This document shows, one piece after another, positions 11,078-60,232 of a stretch of 60,232 nt of DNA; position 1 is the stretch's first letter, and each line of letters starts with the position of its first letter. Both the position numbers and the translations under genes were made by a program. Source of the DNA: a virus. Where the stretch lies: IMG/VR virus record IMGVR_UViG_3300045921_000410, positions 1-60,232 of that record; one strand, 5' to 3'. Below the pieces are notes generated by a model. It saw only the letters and a list, made by a program, of their open reading frames with translations. It made no database searches and was not told the origin of the DNA.

Positions 11078-11926
11078 TCATAAATTTTCCCCCACTATTA
11101 ATTTAATAAAATTATATGTTTTGTCTGCTATATCTTTGGAAAGTCCTTTTGAAATATAAAAATCAATTAAGGCTTGTTTACCGACTGGGATACTACCATT
11201 TTGTAATCCATTGATATAATCTATTGCAATGTCCATCGCTTTTTCTAAACTTTGCTTTGCTAAAGCAATCGCCGGAGTTTGCCCGGCTTCTAAAGATTTT
11301 GCCAATAAACTAGAATTATTAAAACTTTCTAAATTGTTAAAAGAAACTATATCTTCTAGTACAGATTGATTTTTTTCTTGATATATAATTGATTTAGCAA
11401 GTGTCACCGCACTGCCATCAGACATTACATACGGTCTTCCAGCGATAGCTATATGATCCCATTTAATTTTTAATATCTTACGAACTATTTTTTCAAGAAT
11501 TTCATTGAAAGTTTTAATCGTCTCTAATATTGATCCACCGACTGAGGCACCTAATACAGGTTGGTCTGCTTTTAAATGAGGCATGATTGCTTCTTTTACT
11601 ATTTTATGATCTTTTGTTAAGTTTGCATAAACTTTGGGAAGTTTTTGATTGTTCTCCGTGTACCATTCAAAATCCACGGGCTTTCCTAAAATTGCGAAAG
11701 CTCTTTGTTCTGTGGTTGGGGCTGTCCTAGATTCGTGCTGCCAATCAACAATTCCTTCTTTGAGAAAAAAATCTATTACATCTGGGGTAAAAGCTAAAGG
11801 ATCAATTTGATCGTCCACTTTATCTACGTTAAATCTATTTGCAATAATAGATACTGGAAGAATACTATCCGTTTCTATGAAATGTTTTGATTTTTGTAGC
11901 GTCCATGATCCAATTTCTATTCGCAA
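11078..11926 (-). CDS. Prohead maturation protease
   Basis: 282 aa. A herpesvirus-assemblin-like serine protease is suggested by a histidine in VDWQHES (H64) and a serine in LGASVGGS (S128), the order and spacing known for phage prohead proteases. It would cut scaffold and capsid arms before packaging. The start is TTG at 11926 behind GAGGT. It is the first gene after a strong terminator (11947-12010), so the head genes probably have their own promoter or rely on read-through. The C-terminal 100 residues are helical and may be a fused scaffold-like tail. Confidence 0.7.
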   Translation of the reverse strand: MRIEIGSWTLQKSKHFIETDSILPVSIIANRFNVDKVDDQIDPLAFTPDVIDFFLKEGIVDWQHESRTAPTTEQRAFAILGKPVDFEWYTENNQKLPKVYANLTKDHKIVKEAIMPHLKADQPVLGASVGGSILETIKTFNEILEKIVRKILKIKWDHIAIAGRPYVMSDGSAVTLAKSIIYQEKNQSVLEDIVSFNNLESFNNSSLLAKSLEAGQTPAIALAKQSLEKAMDIAIDYINGLQNGSIPVGKQALIDFYISKGLSKDIADKTYNFIKLIVGENL

Positions 11927-11946: not shown

Positions 11947-12010
11947 TAAAAAAACCCGACAACCTCCATTTCCTTTTTTTGCTCAAAAGGGTTTATAGAA
12001 GTTGTCGGGT
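11947..12010 (-). terminator. Strong terminator with nested hairpin
   Basis: ACCCGACAAC (11954-11963) pairs perfectly with GTTGTCGGGT (12001-12010); the 37-nt loop holds a second hairpin, CCTTTT with AAAAGG. On the minus strand the outer stem is followed by six to seven T. It separates the polyvalent-protein cassette from the head genes. Confidence 0.75.
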
Positions 12011-12071
12011 CTCTTCCCGTCAATTTAGAATGTCTTGTTTTACTATATGATTAATATTTAAAAAAAAGCAA

Positions 12072-28450: not shown

Positions 28451-29131
28451 TTATCTCCCATTCATTTTCTTAACTATGGGGATTATAAAATCTTTATACT
28501 CTTTGCAGAATCTTAAAGCTTTCGAATCTATTTCTGAAATTCTTTCATCGCTGAAAGATTCCCACTCTTCTATCGAGTGTTGTTCGCATCCGATTGCTAA
28601 CTGGTCTTTTGTGAATGCAATATGCCATTTAAGACCAATTATGTTTTTTATGTATATCCCATCTCCTACACAAAGAAATATCTTAGCACCTCGAAAATCA
28701 GCGTTTTCGAGATTAGCATTTCTAAAATCAGCATTCATAAGATTTGCATTTGTAAAATTAGTAAATCTTAAATCGGCATCTCTGAAATTAGCATCGTTAA
28801 GATTATTGTCTCTGAAATCAGAATATCTTAAATTAGCATATGCAAAATTAACACTCGCCAAATATGCATTTCTAAAATCAGCATCCATAAGATTTGCACA
28901 AGTGAAATCAGCATTTCTAAAATCAGCATCTCTAAAATCAGCATCTCTTAAATCAGCATCTCTTAAATCAGCCGATTTGAAATCAGCATTTCTAAAATCA
29001 GCATCTCTGAAATCGACATTTCTTAAATCAGCGTCTTTAAAATCAGCTCTCTCACCACCATCTATGCCCTCTAACCATAATTTATGTTTTTCCAAAATTG
29101 TTTCTATCTCAGTTTTACTTAGTTTTTTCAT
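28451..29131 (-). CDS. Pentapeptide repeat protein
   Basis: 226 aa from the ATG at 29131 behind GAGGT. About residues 25-155 are some 25 pentapeptide units of the A(D/N)(L/F)xx type, which fold as a right-handed square beta-helix. The C-terminal region with LKWHIAFTKDQLAIGCEQHS and IEEWESFSDE is a tail I know from phage and bacterial members. Some such proteins mimic DNA and bind gyrase (Qnr, MfpA); whether this one does is unknown. Its leader (29132-29210) can form competing hairpins. Confidence 0.85.
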   Translation of the reverse strand: MKKLSKTEIETILEKHKLWLEGIDGGERADFKDADLRNVDFRDADFRNADFKSADLRDADLRDADFRDADFRNADFTCANLMDADFRNAYLASVNFAYANLRYSDFRDNNLNDANFRDADLRFTNFTNANLMNADFRNANLENADFRGAKIFLCVGDGIYIKNIIGLKWHIAFTKDQLAIGCEQHSIEEWESFSDERISEIDSKALRFCKEYKDFIIPIVKKMNGR

Positions 29132-29152
29132 TCTTTTATACCTCATTTTTTT

Positions 29153-51368: not shown

Positions 51369-51845
51369 TTAAAATTTTGATCGCTCATCACGTAAATTTG
51401 CCGATAAAGTTTGAGCTAAATTAAATTTTGCCTCCAAACTCTCTTTGTAAGTTTTAATGATTCGCATTATTCTTTCTTCCTCTTGAATTAAATTTAACTT
51501 CTCTTCCAGCTGTTTTTTATATCTTTGCCGAACTTTATTTAATTTTGCGGATTCGGTTTTCTCATTAAAAAACTCAGCTAATTTTTCTGCGATATAAAAC
51601 TCATACGCTGATTTCATAGAATTAACTTTCTTTTCGATCTCAGATAAAGCAATTCCAATGTACGCAAAATAACCAGGAATACGTGCAATCTGTTCATTTA
51701 AAATACCTAAATTATGAATGTCTAAATCAAACATATCCGGATCAAAATAATAAGTTTGTTTTCCAATATTCACTTCATAAACAACTGTAGTCTTAATAGT
51801 TTCTAAAAACTTTTTTATATTAGTTATGGGATTTTTTTTCTTCAT
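51369..51845 (-). CDS. Coiled-coil replication-region protein
   Basis: 158 aa, helical (ALSEIEKKVNSMKSAYEFYIAEKL, then long KQLEEKLNLIQEEERIMRI). Such proteins often lie next to phage helicase and SSB genes, with unknown role. Overlaps the primase by 4 bases. Confidence 0.55.
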   Translation of the reverse strand: MKKKNPITNIKKFLETIKTTVVYEVNIGKQTYYFDPDMFDLDIHNLGILNEQIARIPGYFAYIGIALSEIEKKVNSMKSAYEFYIAEKLAEFFNEKTESAKLNKVRQRYKKQLEEKLNLIQEEERIMRIIKTYKESLEAKFNLAQTLSANLRDERSKF

Positions 51846-52825
51846 TTAAACAACGCTTTAAATTCTTTTTTATTCTTTACATGGGAATTAAAATAACTAC
51901 CTAACTTACCACTAACGTGCATTTTATTTGGATCAACTTGATTTTTTTCAATCGTATGAATTAAATATTTAGAAAAATGCTTACTCAAAGCACTTTGAAT
52001 TTGATCCATAACTAATCTACGGGTATTTACAGTATTTGTCTTATTGTCTTTTAATCCATCTAATACTATAACCGGAACATCTGTAATTTTTTTAATCTGG
52101 GAAATTTGGGAATCCGTAATATAAGTTCCGTTCAACGCTACACTGTGTTCTTTATTCATAGTAAAAGACAAAGAATCGAACACACCCTCAGTTATTACTA
52201 AATAAGGAACTTTTCTTTTTCTGCTCGAAAAAATATGAGACGCTCCAAACAAACCATGCACACTACCTTGATCGCCTTCCTGATAGTATCTTAAATCTGC
52301 ATTTGGTCGAATTGATCTACCTTTTATACCAAATAGTTGACCATCAATATTTCTAATCGGATAAACAACTCTACCACGCCAATTATTCTCACTTGGCTTA
52401 CCCTCCATAAATCCATAAGTCTTAGCAATTTTTATATCAATACCTCGATTTTCTAAATACTCTATATAAGGATTTAATCTTAATGGAAAAAAATTCGCTA
52501 AAATACTTTCGTCTAATGGCTTAATTATTTTCTTTTTAAAGCTGTAAGCATTTCCAACTTTTACAAATTCACTTTTATTTTGACCAAAACCAAAATCTTT
52601 ACAAATGTCGTTTGCTTCATTTAACGAGATACATTCAATATCGGCTATAAGCTTTTGCACTTTACCAGACTCATGACAACCCCAACAATGAAAAATTCCT
52701 AACTCAGTATTAATTTGCAAACTTGGATTATTATCATCATGATAAATACAAACAATCTTACATTCTTTACTACCAACTTTTTTAGCTCCATAACGACTAA
52801 CCATATATTGCATAAATGATTTCAT
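51842..52825 (-). CDS. DnaG-like primase
   Basis: 327 aa. CIYHDDNNPSLQIN then FHCWGCHESG is a CHC2 zinc-binding motif, and LVITEGVFDSLSF with VIVLDGLKD are TOPRIM motifs. Short compared with bacterial DnaG, as phage primases often are. It would lay down RNA primers for replication. Start overlaps the helicase stop. Confidence 0.8.
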   Translation of the reverse strand: MKSFMQYMVSRYGAKKVGSKECKIVCIYHDDNNPSLQINTELGIFHCWGCHESGKVQKLIADIECISLNEANDICKDFGFGQNKSEFVKVGNAYSFKKKIIKPLDESILANFFPLRLNPYIEYLENRGIDIKIAKTYGFMEGKPSENNWRGRVVYPIRNIDGQLFGIKGRSIRPNADLRYYQEGDQGSVHGLFGASHIFSSRKRKVPYLVITEGVFDSLSFTMNKEHSVALNGTYITDSQISQIKKITDVPVIVLDGLKDNKTNTVNTRRLVMDQIQSALSKHFSKYLIHTIEKNQVDPNKMHVSGKLGSYFNSHVKNKKEFKALFK

Positions 52826-54189
52826 AACTTACCTACCTTTTTTGGTTTATTTTTTCCTGTTTTAATAAATTTAGCCAAACGAACATTAATATCTAAAAAA
52901 GAGACACTGTCTAAAACCATTCTGGAAAAATCTGGTCTTACAACATAAGTAGTTCCCTTAGGGATACTCCGACCTTTGATTACACCAACTTGTCCTTCCC
53001 CAGATACTTTATCAATCTCAGATTGGTGAAATGAAAGTACAATCTGTGCCCATTCACTTAACGCCCGTGCATACTTAATATCATTTACTTGATAACCTCC
53101 TTTTCTATTTATACCCGCATCTGTAACCTGGGAACTTGTCCAAACTCCAATGTCATTTTCTAAAGCCCATTCAGTCAAAGAGTCCACAGACTCTTTTAGT
53201 TGTATCCTTTCATCTAATCTAGTATTTTTACCTTTAACAAGATATATATGATCTAATATAAAAAGATCGCACTTACTTCCCCGTTTGGCTTGTATCGAAT
53301 CTACTATTGAATATATTTCATCCATTGTTAAATTTTTTGCCGAAACGAATTCATAATAATTTTTTTGATCTCTTCTATATTGTTTAATTAACTCAGACCA
53401 ATCTTCATAGTCACGCTTCATTAATTTGCCTAAACGAAAGTCTCTACTAGGAATTTGAGTAAGCAAAGAATCTGCTCTTAATTGATTTTCAGTTACTACC
53501 ATTTCTAGTCCCAAAAAAATAACATTATAACCTAATAACCAAGCTACAGTAGCAAAATTTAATTTACCTAAAGACTTTCCTCCCCCGGTCTCAGCCACTA
53601 AAAAACCTACCTCTCCTTTTTTTAATCCGCCCGCTTGTTTATCAAATTCACGAATACCCGTCGGAATTATATCTGATTTATTGTTGTCTATACTTTTTGC
53701 ACGCTCTTTAATTAATTGCTGTCTTTGCTCCGCCGTCTCTAAATACTCAGATACTCTAATCTTTGTATTTGTTTGGTGCAATACACCAGAAAGAACTGAG
53801 GTTGCTTGCGAAACATCTTGCTCTTCAACTAACTCAATAGCTTGTTCACAAGCTGTTAGTATTGACCTACAAACATAATTATTTTGAATTACTTTTAAAA
53901 CTGCTTTTACAGAATTTGGGGTTTTTAAAGACTCTGATTTAATTATTGCATCTATACTTTCTTCAACTGTTTTTTTATTTGTACCCGCTTGATCTAATAT
54001 TACTCTTTTCAGAGTCTTAACTGGGAAGTGCGACCTTAACTGTTTTAATATTTTAAATACAATTCGTTCGCCTTGTCCATAAAACCATTCTGAATTAACA
54101 TCTAAACCAACCGAAAAATCGTTTAACGCCATATATCGCAAAAAAGACCGTTCTGCATCTAAATCAACATGCTCAAAAATTACAGACAT
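52822..54189 (-). CDS. DnaB-like replicative helicase
   Basis: 455 aa. After an N-terminal helical domain with a short linker, the RecA-like ATPase has AETGGGKSLGK (Walker A) and DLFILDHIYLV (Walker B), then WTSSQVTDAG and KYARALSEWAQIVLSF. It would unwind the fork and bind primase. Works with the DnaC-like loader encoded just upstream. Confidence 0.8.
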   Translation of the reverse strand: MSVIFEHVDLDAERSFLRYMALNDFSVGLDVNSEWFYGQGERIVFKILKQLRSHFPVKTLKRVILDQAGTNKKTVEESIDAIIKSESLKTPNSVKAVLKVIQNNYVCRSILTACEQAIELVEEQDVSQATSVLSGVLHQTNTKIRVSEYLETAEQRQQLIKERAKSIDNNKSDIIPTGIREFDKQAGGLKKGEVGFLVAETGGGKSLGKLNFATVAWLLGYNVIFLGLEMVVTENQLRADSLLTQIPSRDFRLGKLMKRDYEDWSELIKQYRRDQKNYYEFVSAKNLTMDEIYSIVDSIQAKRGSKCDLFILDHIYLVKGKNTRLDERIQLKESVDSLTEWALENDIGVWTSSQVTDAGINRKGGYQVNDIKYARALSEWAQIVLSFHQSEIDKVSGEGQVGVIKGRSIPKGTTYVVRPDFSRMVLDSVSFLDINVRLAKFIKTGKNKPKKVGKL

Positions 54190-54938
54190 TGAAACGCCTC
54201 TTTAACAAACGTCTTAGCTAAATAATCTTTACGATTTAAAACTATATTATTTTTTGAATTTATTATTGCATTATTGTCACCAGCTATTTTTTCACAAAGC
54301 TGACCTAAAGATATATTAAATTTTTTAATTTCGTTTATGTTTGGCTGAGAAGTAGAAAAATAAATAGACTTACCACTATCCACCATCTTACTTAATACAC
54401 GCTCAATCTTTTTAGAAATCCAAAAATCTTTTCCAAATTCAAAATCTTCAATATCATCTAAAAGTAAAACATCACTACTAAGCAAACGATCAAAATATAT
54501 TATAGAGTCTACATCAGATTCATGTTTAATAAAATTTTCTAAATCACTCATCTTAAAAAACGAAACCCTTGCTTTATCTTGTAAAAAGGTTTTCGCTAAG
54601 TAAGACAAAAACATAGTTTTACCAGAACCCGGTAAACCATGAATCGAACCACCATCATTTAACAAACTTAAATCTACCTCTAAAAAATTAATCATTGGAA
54701 CTGTGACTGGAACTTCCCAGAATTTTCTTGGAATGTTTGCAAATATCAATTCTCTAATATACCTATGAACGACGACACAAAAACAATCCTCCGCACTTCC
54801 GGACTCATTAATCACGGCACCAGTTCCATCACAAACATCATGCCTTTTAACGATTTTATCATAAAGATTAGAAATTAATTCAATTTCTGATTTTGTAAAT
54901 TCTTTCGACCGCACAGTGAAATTTTCTAAATCACTCAT
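54180..54938 (-). CDS. DnaC-like helicase loader
   Basis: 252 aa. AAA+ motifs GLPGSGKTMFLSYLAKT and DVLLLDDIEDFEFGKDF, then SIYFSTSQPN. An N-terminal cysteine set (CDGTG ... DCFCVV) may bind zinc. It would load the helicase. It overlaps the helicase by 10 bases. Confidence 0.75.
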   Translation of the reverse strand: MSDLENFTVRSKEFTKSEIELISNLYDKIVKRHDVCDGTGAVINESGSAEDCFCVVVHRYIRELIFANIPRKFWEVPVTVPMINFLEVDLSLLNDGGSIHGLPGSGKTMFLSYLAKTFLQDKARVSFFKMSDLENFIKHESDVDSIIYFDRLLSSDVLLLDDIEDFEFGKDFWISKKIERVLSKMVDSGKSIYFSTSQPNINEIKKFNISLGQLCEKIAGDNNAIINSKNNIVLNRKDYLAKTFVKEAFQCL

Positions 54939-56601
54939 ATCCTTTATTTAATTCCCCATCGTTTATAGTATTTAAATTTCTTGTTTTATTTTTAATAGCT
55001 TCAACAACTAACTCTTCGATCGTATTAGAAGCAAAAACAATTCTTTGAGTCACATGACTTTTTGATCCCACCCTAGCCGTACGACCAGTTGACTGTATAA
55101 GATCATCAGGATTATATGTCGGGGATATTATAGTAGTTCTGGGATGACCGCCATGAACGTCATGTAAGTCGATTCCAGTACCACCAGACTGAATTTGAGC
55201 AATACATAATTTTGTTTTATTATTTTGAAAATCTTCTTTGTTCTTTTCCCTAACTTGCTGAGTCTGTTTGCCTCGAATCACACTTGGATTATACTTTTTT
55301 AATTTTGTAACTAATGATTCCAACGTTTGAATAAAGTTTACAAATACTACAACGGAAAGCCCATTCTCCAAACTCTCTTCGACCATATTTACAAAATTCG
55401 GTACTTTAAGTAATTCTACTTCTTGACGTGCCCGCAAAATAATAGTAAGCTTAGATTTCTTATCTTTCTGTTTATTCTTTTTTAACTCTTGCAATTCTTT
55501 CTTCATTGATCGAAAGACATCATTAATTTTCTTTTCCTCAACCATGTCGTACGCCTGAATAATTATGTTATTTTTCGGAAAAGCATCACCAAGTTCAGAC
55601 GCTTTAGTTCTAACACCTCTACCAGAACCAAAAATAGAATTATATATTTTAATTAATGAACTCGGTAAATTAGAAAATATTATAGTTTTTTTCTTTGAAC
55701 CTTTCTTGCCCACATTTCCTAAGTAACATCCATGCTCTAATGACCAACTATAATAATTTGACAACTGTTCAAACAATCCAATAGCATAACCTGTAATTTT
55801 TAAATGTAATGGTGAATAAGCTATTGTAGCGGATAAAACAGTAATTAAATATTTTTGTTTTTTTGCAGATAGCAATAATTTTGCATTTAATGTTTTTGGG
55901 TTTTTGCATTTATGAGCCTCATCAAAAATAATTAAAGATTTTTTAGGTATTAGTTTTTCATTAAATGTAAAACTCTCACTAATTGGATCAAACGATACAT
56001 AATCACTGTTCGATCTTTTCAACGTATCGTAACTCATTACATCTATAAGATTTATTTTTAAATATTTTGACCATCGAATCCACTGGGTCACAACTCCCGC
56101 CGGAACAACCGCAAAAACAGGTATTTTAAAATAACTTGCGATCGCTAAATTCTGTAACGTTTTTCCCGTTCCAAGCTCACTTCCATCAAGCATACCACCG
56201 CTTGCAAATTTTTTAAAGCCATATACTAATTCGGCAAGTCTTTCTAACTGCCAAGGAAACAAATGACTTTTTAAAAACTGTGACGGTTTAAATGTTTTTA
56301 AAAATTTTTGGAAATCATTTTGATCTTTAATGGAAATCTGTTTGTATAAATCTACATTGGGTTTAAAATATACGACATACTTTGTACCATTTTTATATAC
56401 AAGAATCCCCTCTTCTTTTAATAACTCTTTTTTTTCTTTATATACTAACCAAAACTTTTTGCTTGGTTCTGAGAGATAAGCAACTACTTGTCCGTTTTGA
56501 ATAGACGGAACAAAATTCAAATTCAAATTAGATTCTATAATAGTAACGTATTCGGGAAAAAGCTCGGAAGTAGACATAGAATTCAACTTATTAGACTCCA
56601 T
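54931..56601 (-). CDS. SNF2-type DNA helicase
   Basis: 556 aa. Motif I DGSELGTGKTLQNLA, II DEAHKCKNPK, III LSATIAYSP, V CIAQIQSGGTGIDL and VI DDLIQSTGRTARVG. Such phage helicases open DNA or remodel protein-DNA complexes near the origin. Coupled to DnaC-like gene by overlap. Confidence 0.8.
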   Translation of the reverse strand: MESNKLNSMSTSELFPEYVTIIESNLNLNFVPSIQNGQVVAYLSEPSKKFWLVYKEKKELLKEEGILVYKNGTKYVVYFKPNVDLYKQISIKDQNDFQKFLKTFKPSQFLKSHLFPWQLERLAELVYGFKKFASGGMLDGSELGTGKTLQNLAIASYFKIPVFAVVPAGVVTQWIRWSKYLKINLIDVMSYDTLKRSNSDYVSFDPISESFTFNEKLIPKKSLIIFDEAHKCKNPKTLNAKLLLSAKKQKYLITVLSATIAYSPLHLKITGYAIGLFEQLSNYYSWSLEHGCYLGNVGKKGSKKKTIIFSNLPSSLIKIYNSIFGSGRGVRTKASELGDAFPKNNIIIQAYDMVEEKKINDVFRSMKKELQELKKNKQKDKKSKLTIILRARQEVELLKVPNFVNMVEESLENGLSVVVFVNFIQTLESLVTKLKKYNPSVIRGKQTQQVREKNKEDFQNNKTKLCIAQIQSGGTGIDLHDVHGGHPRTTIISPTYNPDDLIQSTGRTARVGSKSHVTQRIVFASNTIEELVVEAIKNKTRNLNTINDGELNKGYE

Positions 56602-56606
56602 ATATT

Positions 56607-57623
56607 TTAGTCAATCTTTTTTCTAGTTTTTGCGTACCAGTCCGCTTTATTGATTTCTTGGGGTGCCTTATTATTCTGAATTTTTCGATCACAAAATTCA
56701 TTCAAAGTAGTTATTATTCGATTCCAGGTTGGATACCAAACTCGGTTCTGTGATTTGTGTTCTTGCCATCTTTTTATATAGTATTCTACAAAGGTTTTTT
56801 CGTCAATTTGGTATTCCTGAAAAAGCTCTAAAGCTCTTTGTCCATCTGGGGAATCTAATTTTAATTTAGAAGCAAAAAGATTGTAGCTTTTATTCTGGGA
56901 AAATTCTGTGTGTATTTTCCAAAATATTTTCTGGGGAATACTTCCGTTTTCAATCTCTTCATTTACTTTTGCTTTTAAAGCTTCCAATATATTTTTATCT
57001 TTAGTACTGTATGTTTCTTTAACTAATGTTTCTACTGTTTTATTTGTTAAAATTCTCCCAGAAATTCTATCCCGCAACTTGCTTGCGTTATTGCTATTCT
57101 TTCCTGTGTTCTTTCCTGTGTAGTATCCTGGTATAGATGGGTCATTTTGTCCCAAGGATGGGTCATTTTGTCCCAAGGATGGGTCATTTTGTCCCAGCCC
57201 TGGGTCATTTTGTCCCAGGGTCTTAGAAGCTAGTTTTTTGTTCGCTTCCACTACATCCCAGTCTACTTTTATGGAACTTAATTTTGCTACTTCTTTATAA
57301 TTGATAGCGTACCAAATAGTTTTATCGTATTTATGTTTATTGTAATTTTTTTTAGACCGGTAAATTAGTTTTGAATCTTCCAGTGATTGTAAAACTCTTT
57401 GAACAGTTTTATACGACCAAAAAGGAAAATATTTTTTTTGTAAATCTCTTGAACTTTGATAAGTAAATTTTGTATCTTCTTGATATACATTTCCGCTTGC
57501 TATCTTTACTAAAAAATCTAATCTAAGAAGCATTAAACTTTCTTCTAGTCCTATTTCTTCGGCAAGTGCTATATTAATTACTAATATACGATCATCGTTT
57601 GGTATTAGAAGTGATCCTTTCAA
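56607..57623 (-). CDS. Replication initiator-like protein with iteron repeats
   Basis: 338 aa from TTG at 57623 behind AGGAG; in-frame ATG at 57683 would lie in the leader. The N-terminal part (to about residue 110) has winged-helix features, SRDLQKKYFPFWSYKTVQRVLQSLEDSKLIYRS. Then four LGQNDP(G/S) repeats, a flexible linker, and a helical C-terminus ending in WYPTWNRIITTLNEF as in DnaD/RepA-type phage initiators. It heads the replication operon. I infer binding to the iterons in its own gene and loading of DnaB via DnaC. Confidence 0.7.
   Translation of the reverse strand: MKGSLLIPNDDRILVINIALAEEIGLEESLMLLRLDFLVKIASGNVYQEDTKFTYQSSRDLQKKYFPFWSYKTVQRVLQSLEDSKLIYRSKKNYNKHKYDKTIWYAINYKEVAKLSSIKVDWDVVEANKKLASKTLGQNDPGLGQNDPSLGQNDPSLGQNDPSIPGYYTGKNTGKNSNNASKLRDRISGRILTNKTVETLVKETYSTKDKNILEALKAKVNEEIENGSIPQKIFWKIHTEFSQNKSYNLFASKLKLDSPDGQRALELFQEYQIDEKTFVEYYIKRWQEHKSQNRVWYPTWNRIITTLNEFCDRKIQNNKAPQEINKADWYAKTRKKID
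57136..57219 (-). repeat. Four 21-bp iterons inside the initiator gene
   Basis: Units at 57136, 57157, 57178 and 57199; each contains GGGTCATTTTGTCCC, an imperfect palindrome GGG.CA....TG.CCC. They code for LGQNDPS repeats. Direct repeats inside an initiator gene are typical of phage origins (for example lambda O), so this is a candidate origin. Confidence 0.75.
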
Positions 57624-57636
57624 TTTTGTACTCCTG

Positions 57637-57746
57637 AAATAGAAAACCCCTTCAAAGGAAAACAAGAAAAAGACACACCACATGAACAAATTCTTGCTTT
57701 CCTCTAAAGAGGTTTTCTATTTATGTTTTATTTTTTTGTGGTGTGT
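57637..57746 (-). promoter_or_regulatory. Structured RNA leader with pseudoknot potential
   Basis: In minus-strand RNA, 57722-57693 pairs with 57666-57637 over 30 bp; four positions are G-U there and would be A-C mismatches in the other strand. The 26-nt loop contains TGTGGTGTGT (57682-57673), which is perfectly complementary to ACACACCACA (57746-57737) at the predicted 5' end. The stem ends one base before the Shine-Dalgarno AGGAG (57635-57631). This suggests translational control of the initiator. Confidence 0.7.
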
Positions 57747-57752
57747 AAAATC

Positions 57753-57782
57753 TATAAATTTTAGATACTGATTTTTTGTCAA
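57753..57782 (-). promoter_or_regulatory. Sigma-70-type promoter of the initiator
   Basis: TTGACA (57782-57777), 18-base spacer, TTTATA (57758-57753). The start would fall at about 57746, just where the ACACACCACA element begins. The -35 box overlaps the stop of the spanin-like gene. Confidence 0.55.
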
Positions 57783-58171
57783 TTCATAAAAGGAATTTTT
57801 ATTTTTAAGATTAATAAAACAATCCCTAAAATAATTAATCCAAATATTGTATATTTAAAAGCTGAGACAAAACCTATCGCCCATTCTGCTTCTTTTAAAT
57901 CTTTTTTATTTTGTAAAATTTCTCGTGCTTGGGAATGAGATTTAATTTGACAGGCTTTATTCTCACTGTTTAGTTTTTTTAATTCTTCTAAAATTAAAGA
58001 AATTTCTTCTTTAAGTAAGACTGTATTAGAGTCGTTTGTGATTTTTTCTGTTCTTACTTGAACTTGTTCAATGAGTTTAGAGCGATCATTGTATTGAACT
58101 TTAATTTCTTTTATTTCTGGATTTCCACACCCAAAAATAAAAACTAAAATAATTATGAATTTTTTAATCAT
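57779..58171 (-). CDS. Unimolecular spanin candidate (lipoprotein)
   Basis: 130 aa. Signal KKFIIILVFIFGC gives a lipoprotein cysteine at C15; a charged coiled-coil middle (LLKEEISLILEELKKLNSENK) is followed by a C-terminal membrane span YTIFGLIILGIVLLILKI (about 107-124). A lipid anchor at one end and a membrane span at the other is the layout of u-spanins, which join and fuse inner and outer membranes at lysis. It is far from the holin/peptidase pair, so other roles remain possible. Confidence 0.6.
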   Translation of the reverse strand: MIKKFIIILVFIFGCGNPEIKEIKVQYNDRSKLIEQVQVRTEKITNDSNTVLLKEEISLILEELKKLNSENKACQIKSHSQAREILQNKKDLKEAEWAIGFVSAFKYTIFGLIILGIVLLILKIKIPFMN

Positions 58172-58509
58172 TGTTTTTTACCTTCTTTTATTGATTTAAT
58201 TAATTCTTTATTTTCTTTTCGTTTTTCTGATTCAAACAATTCTTTTTTAATTATTTGAAACCAAGGATTAAAATTTTCGCAAGTAGTATTTACAATTTTA
58301 TTAATATCGTTTCTGTTTATATATCCTTTATGAATTAATGTCGCTGTTAAATTTCCTATTTTAGTTACTGGGATACCCGTGACTTTGCTTGCTTCTCGAA
58401 AATCATAAAAACCAACTAACTCATAATAAGCATATAAAGAGGCAAGGCTTAAATCTTTTGCACTTGTTTTAAATAATAGTTCTACGGGAATATTGACACT
58501 TCTCTGCAT
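58168..58509 (-). CDS. Small winged-helix-like regulator
   Basis: 113 aa. SLASLYAYYELVGFYDFREASKVTGIPVTKIGNLTATLIHKGYI looks like a DNA-binding winged helix in which a recognition helix follows IPVTKIGN; a lysine-rich tail follows. It may control the genes around it. Overlaps the next gene by 4 bases. Confidence 0.5.
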   Translation of the reverse strand: MQRSVNIPVELLFKTSAKDLSLASLYAYYELVGFYDFREASKVTGIPVTKIGNLTATLIHKGYINRNDINKIVNTTCENFNPWFQIIKKELFESEKRKENKELIKSIKEGKKQ

Positions 58510-58527
58510 AAGACAAAATTTTACTAG

Positions 58528-59040
58528 TTATTCATATTCGGCAAGCTGAATTATTACAGATTCGGAGTTTTGAGTCAAAGCTTGTAAATAAGCAAAATGG
58601 GATTCTAATCCTTTTTTTGGAAAAATTATTTTGAGAAATACTCCATTGTTTTGAATTACGTCTAATATTATTTTTACAAAAGAATTTAAAGCTGTCGCAC
58701 TTATGAATTTTACAGTTGAAAGATTAATAATAAGTTTTTTTCCAGCGTAAGGTTTGCTTCTAAGATCATCTAATTCTTGTTTTAAATAATCAAAAAACAT
58801 TTCTTTTTGAGAAACACGTAAAACACCAACTAAATTAAAAACAACGATTAATTCTTGAACGTAAACTGCCTCTTTGTAAGTAAACTTAGTTTCTTTTTTT
58901 ATTATATTTGACGGTGTGGGTATTATAGTCTCACCCTTCCACTTTAATCCACGTAAAAATAGTAAAGTTAAAACGCCGATACCTAAGATTAAAATTACAA
59001 ATTGTAAACTGTATTTAATAACAAAATCTATAAATTGCAT
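58528..59040 (-). CDS. Membrane-anchored STAS-domain protein
   Basis: 170 aa. Residues 10-30 (LQFVILILGIGVLTLLFLRGL) are a membrane anchor. The rest has AGKKLIINLSTVKFISATALNSFVKIILDV then GVFLKIIFPKKGLE, the strand-helix pattern of STAS/anti-anti-sigma domains, with S/T near the usual phospho-serine (FISATALN). STAS proteins bind anti-sigma kinases or partner switches. A membrane form in a phage is unusual; the partner is unknown. Confidence 0.6.
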   Translation of the reverse strand: MQFIDFVIKYSLQFVILILGIGVLTLLFLRGLKWKGETIIPTPSNIIKKETKFTYKEAVYVQELIVVFNLVGVLRVSQKEMFFDYLKQELDDLRSKPYAGKKLIINLSTVKFISATALNSFVKIILDVIQNNGVFLKIIFPKKGLESHFAYLQALTQNSESVIIQLAEYE

Positions 59041-59049
59041 ATAACTCTC

Positions 59050-59316
59050 TTATTTTTTAATAGATTCTGAATCTTTTTCTTTTTCAATTGATCCCTGACC
59101 TATTGCCTGAATTTCTGCATCTTTTTTCTTTTTTTCCTCGTCGATTTTTAATTTTTTTCCATCCCAGATTCCGTAAATTAAAATATCTGAATTAAAATCA
59201 GAATCTTTTAACTTACATAAAAAACCTAAATTACTTTCTTTTATTTCTCTACTGCTTAATTCGTTTGTCGCATAATACAAATTATTGAATTTATTATCTT
59301 TATATACATAAATCAT
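59050..59316 (-). CDS. Small unknown protein
   Basis: 88 aa, beta-like N-terminus (MIYVYKDNKFNNLYYATNEL) and a highly charged K/E end (DEEKKKKDAE ... EKEKDSESIKK). It follows the surface-type gene closely and may be an accessory or chaperone of it. No motif. Confidence 0.5.
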   Translation of the reverse strand: MIYVYKDNKFNNLYYATNELSSREIKESNLGFLCKLKDSDFNSDILIYGIWDGKKLKIDEEKKKKDAEIQAIGQGSIEKEKDSESIKK

Positions 59317-59322
59317 TTTTAT

Positions 59323-60231
59323 TTACCATCCGTTATTTGCAAATTTTGGGTTTTGAATAGGTCTAAATATATTTTTATCGTCTATAAAACCTACGATATT
59401 ATTTCCGTCATTATTATTTTTCCAAACTTCATAATCAATAGTTACGTTGTTGTAATTTATAGGAGTTGTTTGATCATTTTCCACTATTTGAGTTCCGTCT
59501 TCTCCAATGCTAACATATTTATTTTTTATGTTATTATTTATTTTAAATGGTTTTTTAGTAACTATGATGGAATTGTTTTTAATTTTAGCTACATGTCCTA
59601 GATAGTTTCTAGGGGAAACAATTCCTTTCATTATACTTATTACACTCCCACCGCCATCTTGTTGCCAAATAAAATATTCTATACCTCTATTAGTAGATTT
59701 TAAAATAGAATAAAATTTAGATTCTTGTGTCCAGGTTGTATTACCGCTATTAGAAGCACTCATCATATAATCAAAAAGTTTTATAGAATAAATTTCTTTA
59801 ATTTGTAAATTTTGTTCGTTGTAAATTTTTATCATTATAGAATTGTAAAAACCCATTATGACTGCAAACTTATCATTAGATATTTTACAATAGTTATGTA
59901 TTCTGGGGTAAAAAGGAGTTCTAAGTAAAGTATTAGAATCGTCGTTATCGTTGTTAAAAATACTATTTACCTGTCTAACACCATTTGGAATATTATCACC
60001 AGAAGCTCCGGCGTCTTCTCTAATATTTACTAAATTTGTTTTGTAAGTATATGTAGGAAGTGATATTGAATTATTACCAAAATTAGTTAAGTGAGTTATT
60101 CCCGCATTATTTTTTAATGGTATATATTTAAAAGAAGTAGGTTTTGCATTTGTTATACTTGTAAATCCTACGTTTGATATCGTAATTAAATTTTGTGGAT
60201 TAGAATTATTTCCCGTAAAAAGTCCATAATA
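59323..60231 (-). CDS. Partial beta-rich surface-type protein
   Basis: Open to the right edge, so the N-terminus is missing; 302 codons are visible. The frame continues without a stop through 59856, an internal ATG that is not the true start. The sequence is rich in N, G, T, I and Y with many NN and beta-strand patterns (NLITISNVGFTSITN, WQQDGGGSVISI), as in repetitive surface or fibre proteins. A receptor-binding or fibre role is possible; no specific fold recognised. Confidence 0.5.
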   Translation of the reverse strand, partial: YYGLFTGNNSNPQNLITISNVGFTSITNAKPTSFKYIPLKNNAGITHLTNFGNNSISLPTYTYKTNLVNIREDAGASGDNIPNGVRQVNSIFNNDNDDSNTLLRTPFYPRIHNYCKISNDKFAVIMGFYNSIMIKIYNEQNLQIKEIYSIKLFDYMMSASNSGNTTWTQESKFYSILKSTNRGIEYFIWQQDGGGSVISIMKGIVSPRNYLGHVAKIKNNSIIVTKKPFKINNNIKNKYVSIGEDGTQIVENDQTTPINYNNVTIDYEVWKNNNDGNNIVGFIDDKNIFRPIQNPKFANNGW

Positions 60232-60232
60232 T

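Follow-up and report, generated by a model that had tools for sequence, protein, structure and literature searches.

A predicted two-helix RNA leader in pseudoknot order before the replication-initiation gene of two distant tailed phages

The replication operon of the tailed phage analyzed here (IMG/VR record IMGVR_UViG_3300045921_000410; the whole stretch of 60,232 nt is referred to as the window) is preceded by a minus-strand RNA leader in which two helices stand in pseudoknot order directly before the gene for a replication-initiation protein. One helix (S2) is the stem of a long hairpin, and the other (S1) pairs the apical loop of that hairpin with the leader on its 5′ side. The same layout is found in wholly different sequence before the initiator gene of a second, distant phage, and we regard it as highly probable that the leader is a functional cis-acting RNA of some kind. 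How it acts can be stated less firmly. We tentatively favor transcription attenuation as the main mode of this structured 5′ leader, a reading that points to the terminator-like character of S2 in both phages and that could well prove wrong.

The phage and its replication operon

Nearly all genes of the window, a tailed-phage record in IMG/VR, lie on the minus strand; they include a tail sheath, a major capsid protein, a terminase and a replication module. The terminase and major capsid protein bear a distant likeness to those of SPO1-type phages. Among the PHROG matches of the window there is no integrase, repressor or other lysogeny family. A second record, G001 (IMGVR_UViG_3300044940_000352), represents this phage again, permuted, with an identity of at least 99.95% over the common parts (window positions 1–37598 and 58050–60232), and the two records combined imply a circular or permuted genome of ~73.7 kb. 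The G001 record ends at window position 58050 and is without the leader. The replication module is made up as follows.

56607–57623, minus strand: replication-initiation protein gene (TTG start at 57623–57621, 338 aa; phrog_6493, phrog_11233, phrog_270)
57138–57217, minus strand: four identical 17-bp repeats, TGGGACAAAATGACCCA, at 21-bp spacing within the initiator gene (repeat search)
51842–56601, minus strand: replication genes 3′ of the initiator, the four that follow
54931–56601, minus strand: helicase (PHROG/ORF annotation)
54180–54938, minus strand: DnaC-like loader
52822–54189, minus strand: DnaB
51842–52825, minus strand: primase

The families matched by the product of 57623–56607 are a DnaD-like helicase loader (phrog_6493) and two of replication initiation (phrog_11233 and phrog_270). 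The lambda O gene houses the iterons of its own origin, and by analogy the TGGGACAAAATGACCCA repeats in the initiator gene are probably origin iterons in the lambda O style.

Two other repeat families were observed in the window. A leader module of ~50 bp, roughly GCGACACTTTTTnTTTTAGTTTACTTnTATnAATGAAAGAGGTAAAAACGATG, occurs in seven minus-strand copies (22688, 23144, 25043, 25441, 26653, 27103 and 29775) that mostly run into a start codon; we read it as a repeated promoter/ribosome-binding unit of early genes. The gene at 28451–29146 contains about 22 tandem copies of a 15-bp unit (28715–29052), and its product is pentapeptide-repeat-like, with the pattern A-D-F-R-N/D.

A 32-bp hairpin adjoins the ribosome-binding site

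The elements of the leader, in the order of transcription, are listed here.

57751–57782, minus strand: possible promoter, TTGACA (57782–57777) and TATAGA (57756–57751) at a spacing of 20 (pattern search; weak)
57737–57746, minus strand: S1 5′ strand, ACACACCACA, close to the predicted mRNA 5′ end (exact loop complement)
57723–57736, minus strand: linker L1, A-rich, 14 nt, from S1 to the hairpin (sequence)
57691–57722, minus strand: S2 5′ arm, 32 nt, whose outer A-tract AAATAGAAAA pairs with the U-tract (folding)
57673–57682, minus strand: S1 3′ strand, TGTGGTGTGT, in the apical loop (folding, complementarity)
57637–57668, minus strand: S2 3′ arm, 32 of 32 positions paired, four as G-U (folding)
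57637–57646, minus strand: U-tract UUUUCUAUUU right after the stem base GGGG (terminator score d = 14.9)
57631–57635, minus strand: Shine-Dalgarno sequence AGGAG, one base past the helix and 7 nt before TTG (sequence)

In minus-strand RNA, S2 pairs 57722–57691 with 57668–57637 over 32 bp, 28 of them Watson-Crick and four G-U, with no mismatch, and it is the strongest inverted repeat in the whole window. The first-pass annotation had described a helix of 30 bp at this place; all 30 pairs are present and the helix runs two pairs further inward, to 57691/57668. Its four wobble positions were also given exactly, and the same four would be A-C in plus-strand RNA. Were a perfect repeat simply decaying, the probability that all four changes would give G-U in the minus strand is about 0.001–0.06, depending on the transition bias. 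Because every departure from the perfect repeat is a one-sided G-U pair, minus-strand RNA is favored as the thing selected.

The helix ends one base before AGGAG, as had been noted, with C57636 as the sole base between. Folding of the minus strand gave −46.9 kcal/mol for the leader (z = −5.2), and none of 200 shuffles did as well; the folding program is nested, so that it makes S1 and S2 mutually exclusive and leaves the pseudoknot itself unscored. An ATG at 57683, in the apical loop, lies in the initiator frame, which is open through the S2 3′ arm and gives a possible extended form M-W-C-V-F-F-L-F... This start, which would add 20 residues to the initiator, is without a Shine-Dalgarno sequence and was set aside.

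The apical loop is complementary to the start of the leader

The apical loop is 22 nt long, and the complementarity first reported between loop and leader is exact over 10 nt (ACACACCACA/TGTGGTGTGT). The match is unique in the window and neither strand recurs elsewhere; a reading of the pair as a repeated protein operator was ruled out, there being no other occurrence. The partner of the loop, at 57746–57737, sits 5′ of the hairpin, and no other complement was found. By chance, a match as good arose in 31 of 20,000 leader/loop shuffles and in 20 of 20,000 random genomic placements (about 0.1–0.2%). Taken together, hairpin and leader–loop pairing score about −66.6, and the best of 60 block-shuffled minus-strand copies reached −39.4.

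In both phages, the complementarity between the loop and single-stranded RNA beyond the hairpin, the pairing that marks an H-type pseudoknot, is significant at the level of sequence. The linkers L1, L2 and L3 of the window are 14, 8 and 4 nt long. From rough length estimates we infer that S1 and S2 could possibly coexist with S1 folded back along S2, and that the classical coaxial H-type arrangement with a 32-bp S2 would probably not be a comfortable reach.

The mRNA 5′ end that had been placed at about 57746 is less secure. The TTGACA and TATAGA boxes upstream of it stand 20 nt apart, and a scan with the sigma-70 consensus lists no minus-strand promoter at the leader. There is no ATG, GTG or TTG in the leader between 57760 and 57691 and hence no translated leader peptide. 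A consensus scan for an antisense-RNA promoter found no convincing plus-strand candidate just downstream of the element.

The layout recurs in a second phage without shared sequence

The second case, G008 (IMGVR_UViG_3300032893_000017, 97 kb), was reached through a major capsid profile (42% identity) and is syntenic with the window through terminase, polymerase, primase, DnaB and DnaC-like loader; capsid protein and synteny identified it independently of the hairpin. The gene order initiator–DnaC–DnaB–primase is common to the two phages. The G008 initiator (413 aa; phrog_270, E = 1.6e-12) is encoded upstream of the loader. BLAST gives no alignment between the two initiator proteins, and their N-termini are alike, M-R-G-N-L in G008 and M-K-G-S-L in the window.

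Directly before the G008 initiator gene, a minus-strand S2 of 20 bp (L186 7209–7190 with 7129–7110) closes a 60-nt loop, and 21 nt separate the end of the hairpin from the gene. The loop includes CCGTCATATTGTTCCTCCCC, the leader 5′ of the hairpin reads GGGGAGGGAATAACAAATGACGG, and the S1 predicted between that leader and the loop sequence CCGUCAUAUUGUUCCUCCCC consists of 8 + 11 bp with bulges (about 19 bp) at −29.9 kcal/mol. In a gapped comparison, 4 of 3000 shuffled pairs were as good; the longest ungapped run is weaker evidence, being equaled in 824 of 20,000 shuffles and 100 of 20,000 genomic placements. The G008 leader folds with z = −4.1, and its combined score of −52.2 stands against −42.5 for the best of 120 shuffles of that stretch.

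Neither S1 nor S2 shows any resemblance in sequence between the two phages. An unbiased scan covered both strands of 1.46 Mb of AT-rich phage DNA in search of hairpins with a loop able to pair with the 50 nt before them; the window and G008 leaders ranked first and second (−66.7 and −52.2), and the next locus scored −40.3. Since the two top-ranked leaders have the same layout, the pseudoknot helix order is recurrent, and it very likely marks a functional RNA. The first-pass annotation had asked whether relatives keep the protein and lose both helices; G008 keeps both helices, in wholly different sequence, and its layout supports the annotation's central claim, that a replication-initiation gene is preceded by minus-strand RNA that is functional and has its two helices in the order of a pseudoknot. 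The recurrence of one layout in independent sequences before the same type of gene is in effect whole-helix covariation, with n = 2 and leaders that do not align.

A mini-ORF, ATGACGGCTAAATTATATTAG, was observed in the G008 leader (MTAKLY; L186 7250–7205, minus strand). A Shine-Dalgarno-like GGAGGG lies in the S1 5′ strand, the MTAKLY stop overlaps the S2 5′ arm, and the loop bears CCUCCCC, which resembles an anti-Shine-Dalgarno sequence. These positions hint that a ribosome on MTAKLY would hold the G008 S2 open. Because the window has no MTAKLY-like ORF, a ribosome on a mini-ORF is not a principle that the two phages share. The G008 initiator gene also contains 6-bp tandem repeats in mid-gene (L186 6686–6725).

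Distribution among relatives

No phage in IMG/VR with a close relative of the initiator, DnaB, the helicase or the terminase was found to have the leader, apart from the window phage itself. Bacterial genomes scanned with the initiator and capsid yielded nothing, and an IMG/VR scan with the G008 initiator returned G008 only. Other capsid relatives (G009, G016, G024 and others) have replication modules that are different or missing, and there is no further comparable AT-rich leader in G011, G015–G018, G021, G024, G026, G030 or G032. The nearest homologs of the initiator (at most 38% identity; phages and a plasmid) have the gene within an operon whose gaps do not exceed about 96 nt, which leaves no room for such a leader. 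The leader is evidently not general to the initiator family, given that the Bacillus, Listeria and Staphylococcus phages checked have the gene inside an operon.

The hairpin resembles an intrinsic terminator

In both phages S2 has the form of an intrinsic terminator, a stable stem and then a U-rich tract, a feature that the first-pass annotation had overlooked. The stem base reads GGGG-UUUUCUAUUU in the window and GUGC-UUUUUUAUUU in G008. The tract is U at 8 of 10 positions in the window, a content reached by 0.6% of minus-strand 10-mers, and at 9 of 10 in G008 (0.05%). The d'Aubenton-Carafa score d, computed for every hairpin, is a moderate 14.9 for the window S2 (11th on its strand) and 29.8 for that of G008 (fifth strongest on the minus strand). 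A strict short-loop terminator scan lists neither S2; loops as long as theirs (22 and 60 nt) are unusual. The window U-tract is partly paired with the A-tract.

Because the U-tract is present in both phages, transcription attenuation appears at least as likely as translational control, and a terminator-like S2 placed between a probable promoter and the ribosome-binding site occupies the site typical of an attenuator. The window also has many canonical intrinsic terminators, and G008 has them too. One hairpin of the window, at 11948–12016 on the minus strand (stem of 19–22 bp, 25-nt loop, U7), is a predicted strong terminator with d = 40 that likewise lies directly before a gene, about 22 nt from the gene at 11926.

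A possible attenuator and its alternatives

Stepwise folding of lengthening transcripts favors S1 at the outset, with P = 0.97 for the window and about 0.84 for G008; S2 wins only when its 3′ arm is largely complete. If the leader is an attenuator, S1 would form first during transcription and hold the loop and the 5′ end. S2 would then close as polymerase pauses at the U-tract, leading to termination and release of an RNA of ~110 nt, and a polymerase that passes the U-tract would go on to make initiator mRNA. S1 might set the speed and completeness of S2 closure and, through these, the initiator dose; the balance might be shifted by how fast polymerase moves, by ribosomes, by a second RNA or by a protein, of which the initiator is one example. 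In this way the leader would limit and time initiator synthesis at the level of transcription. Counting against attenuation, S1 does not overlap the arms of S2, so that it is hard to see how S1 would modulate termination; the promoter is a weak one by its sequence, the window U-tract is partly paired and its d only moderate, and there are two members, with initiators that BLAST cannot align. A wider proposal is that such pseudoknotted attenuators form a new class of phage leader, in which a first-forming S1 tunes the terminator, the ~110-nt RNA feeds back on the nascent leaders of other genome copies, a phage with no visible lysogeny genes controls its replication dose by RNA only, and structure is kept while sequence turns over. 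We offer it as speculation and would not expect it to hold in full.

Control of translation, with S1 and S2 setting ribosome access to AGGAG and the initiator possibly an autogenous repressor, is in our judgment rather unlikely. The single base between helix and Shine-Dalgarno sequence in the window and the pseudoknot order kept in G008 would both suit it, and pseudoknots are known to control the translation of an initiator in a plasmid (PMC8383071) and of a replication protein in a phage (PMC3014915). However, the Shine-Dalgarno sequence itself is unpaired in either helix, a mostly-U tract lies between the G008 stem base and its Shine-Dalgarno sequence at a spacing that suits a terminator better, and two departures from IncI plasmids are the upstream position of the loop partner and the lack of any apparent antisense RNA. 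A role in RNA stability or processing would have S1 bury the 5′ end and S2, a helix of more than two turns, either cut by RNase III or shielding the mRNA. The near-perfect 32-bp helix and the S1 5′ strand close to the predicted 5′ end in both phages agree with such a role, which would have analogs in the 5′ stem-loops of stable bacterial mRNAs and in the lambda N leader with its RNase III site. It would need neither U-tracts nor loop pairing, however, and the 5′ ends are predicted only; we consider it distinctly unlikely.

The terminated leader of ~110 nt might instead act in trans, through its loop, on the nascent leaders of other genome copies, as a feedback on copy number. This would follow the logic of P4, in which the upstream seqA is complementary to CI RNA and their pairing terminates the replication operon (PMC4825925), and here too a replication operon follows and the loop is complementary to its own leader only. 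A seqC-like second target is nevertheless absent downstream in both phages, intramolecular S1 would compete, and neither lysogeny genes nor a C4-type Rfam match are seen, which leaves trans action quite improbable. We give still less credit to S2 as an ordinary terminator of the upstream late genes, with an S1 match that is due to chance or has some other use. S2, whose terminator score is 14.9, does start 57 nt beyond the lipoprotein gene's stop codon (57779), where the late genes give way to the replication module, yet a promoter would not fit between S2 and the Shine-Dalgarno sequence, so that synthesis of the initiator would require read-through, and S1 is significant in both phages. An element acting as DNA, whether cruciform, operator pair or part of the origin, is hardly credible: the inverted repeats adjoin the iteron-bearing initiator gene, but four of four departures from symmetry are G-U in one strand, the G008 U-tract is on one strand only, the RNA strand, and the sequences differ wholly between the phages, unlike a conserved protein site.

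Comparison with known systems

The IncI/IncB plasmids had been named as a parallel and copy-number or phase control as the likely function. In IncI plasmids the loop pairs downstream near the repZ Shine-Dalgarno sequence, a leader peptide is needed, and an antisense RNA blocks. The parallel does not extend to such detail, since the window loop has its partner upstream, 5′ of the hairpin and not beside the Shine-Dalgarno sequence, and the window yielded no leader peptide and no convincing promoter for an antisense RNA. Copy-number or phase control likewise draws no support from an antisense RNA or a lysogeny gene. What the leader shares with IncIα/IncB is an initiator gene (phrog_6493 and phrog_11233 here) 3′ of a structured leader; in IncIα, a pseudoknot lies upstream of the ribosome-binding site of repZ, a replication initiator gene (PMC8383071).

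Closest in logic is the immunity leader of P4, whose CI RNA pairs with seqA upstream and seqC downstream and terminates the replication operon (PMC4825925). Both are leaders of a replication operon with an upstream complement to a following RNA segment and premature termination, which is only predicted here. Unlike P4, the window has only the upstream complement and no downstream seqC-like copy, the hairpin itself carries the terminator U-tract, and there is neither a sign of lysogeny nor any sequence relation. The prophage leaders of IsrK type make a short leader RNA and a read-through mRNA from one promoter (PMC4825925); they differ from the window in their genes, with no match in sequence or family, and termination in the window is a prediction. 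The leader pseudoknot of T4-type gene 32 was described in 2010 as possibly the only viral example in translational autoregulation (PMC3014915), and it too lies in the leader of a phage replication gene. That pseudoknot is small (two coaxial stems in T2), lies 67 nt upstream of the start and is bound by gp32, whereas S2 in the window and G008 has 20–32 bp and a U-tract and adjoins the ribosome-binding site. No gathering-level match to C4 antisense RNA or any other Rfam family was found in the window, and a relaxed Rfam search gave only generic microRNA-hairpin and sRNA scores below the cut-off.

Implications

RNA control of replication initiators is familiar in plasmids and in the satellite phage P4; for large tailed phages, documentation of a pseudoknot leader is essentially confined to T4 gene 32. 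The two-helix leader described here, present in two distant myoviruses with no common sequence, points to a class that sequence searches and Rfam have missed. The leader is probably an RNA switch that meters the amount of a replication protein, and the question of how a phage adjusts its supply of replication initiator can be tested on it in concrete terms.
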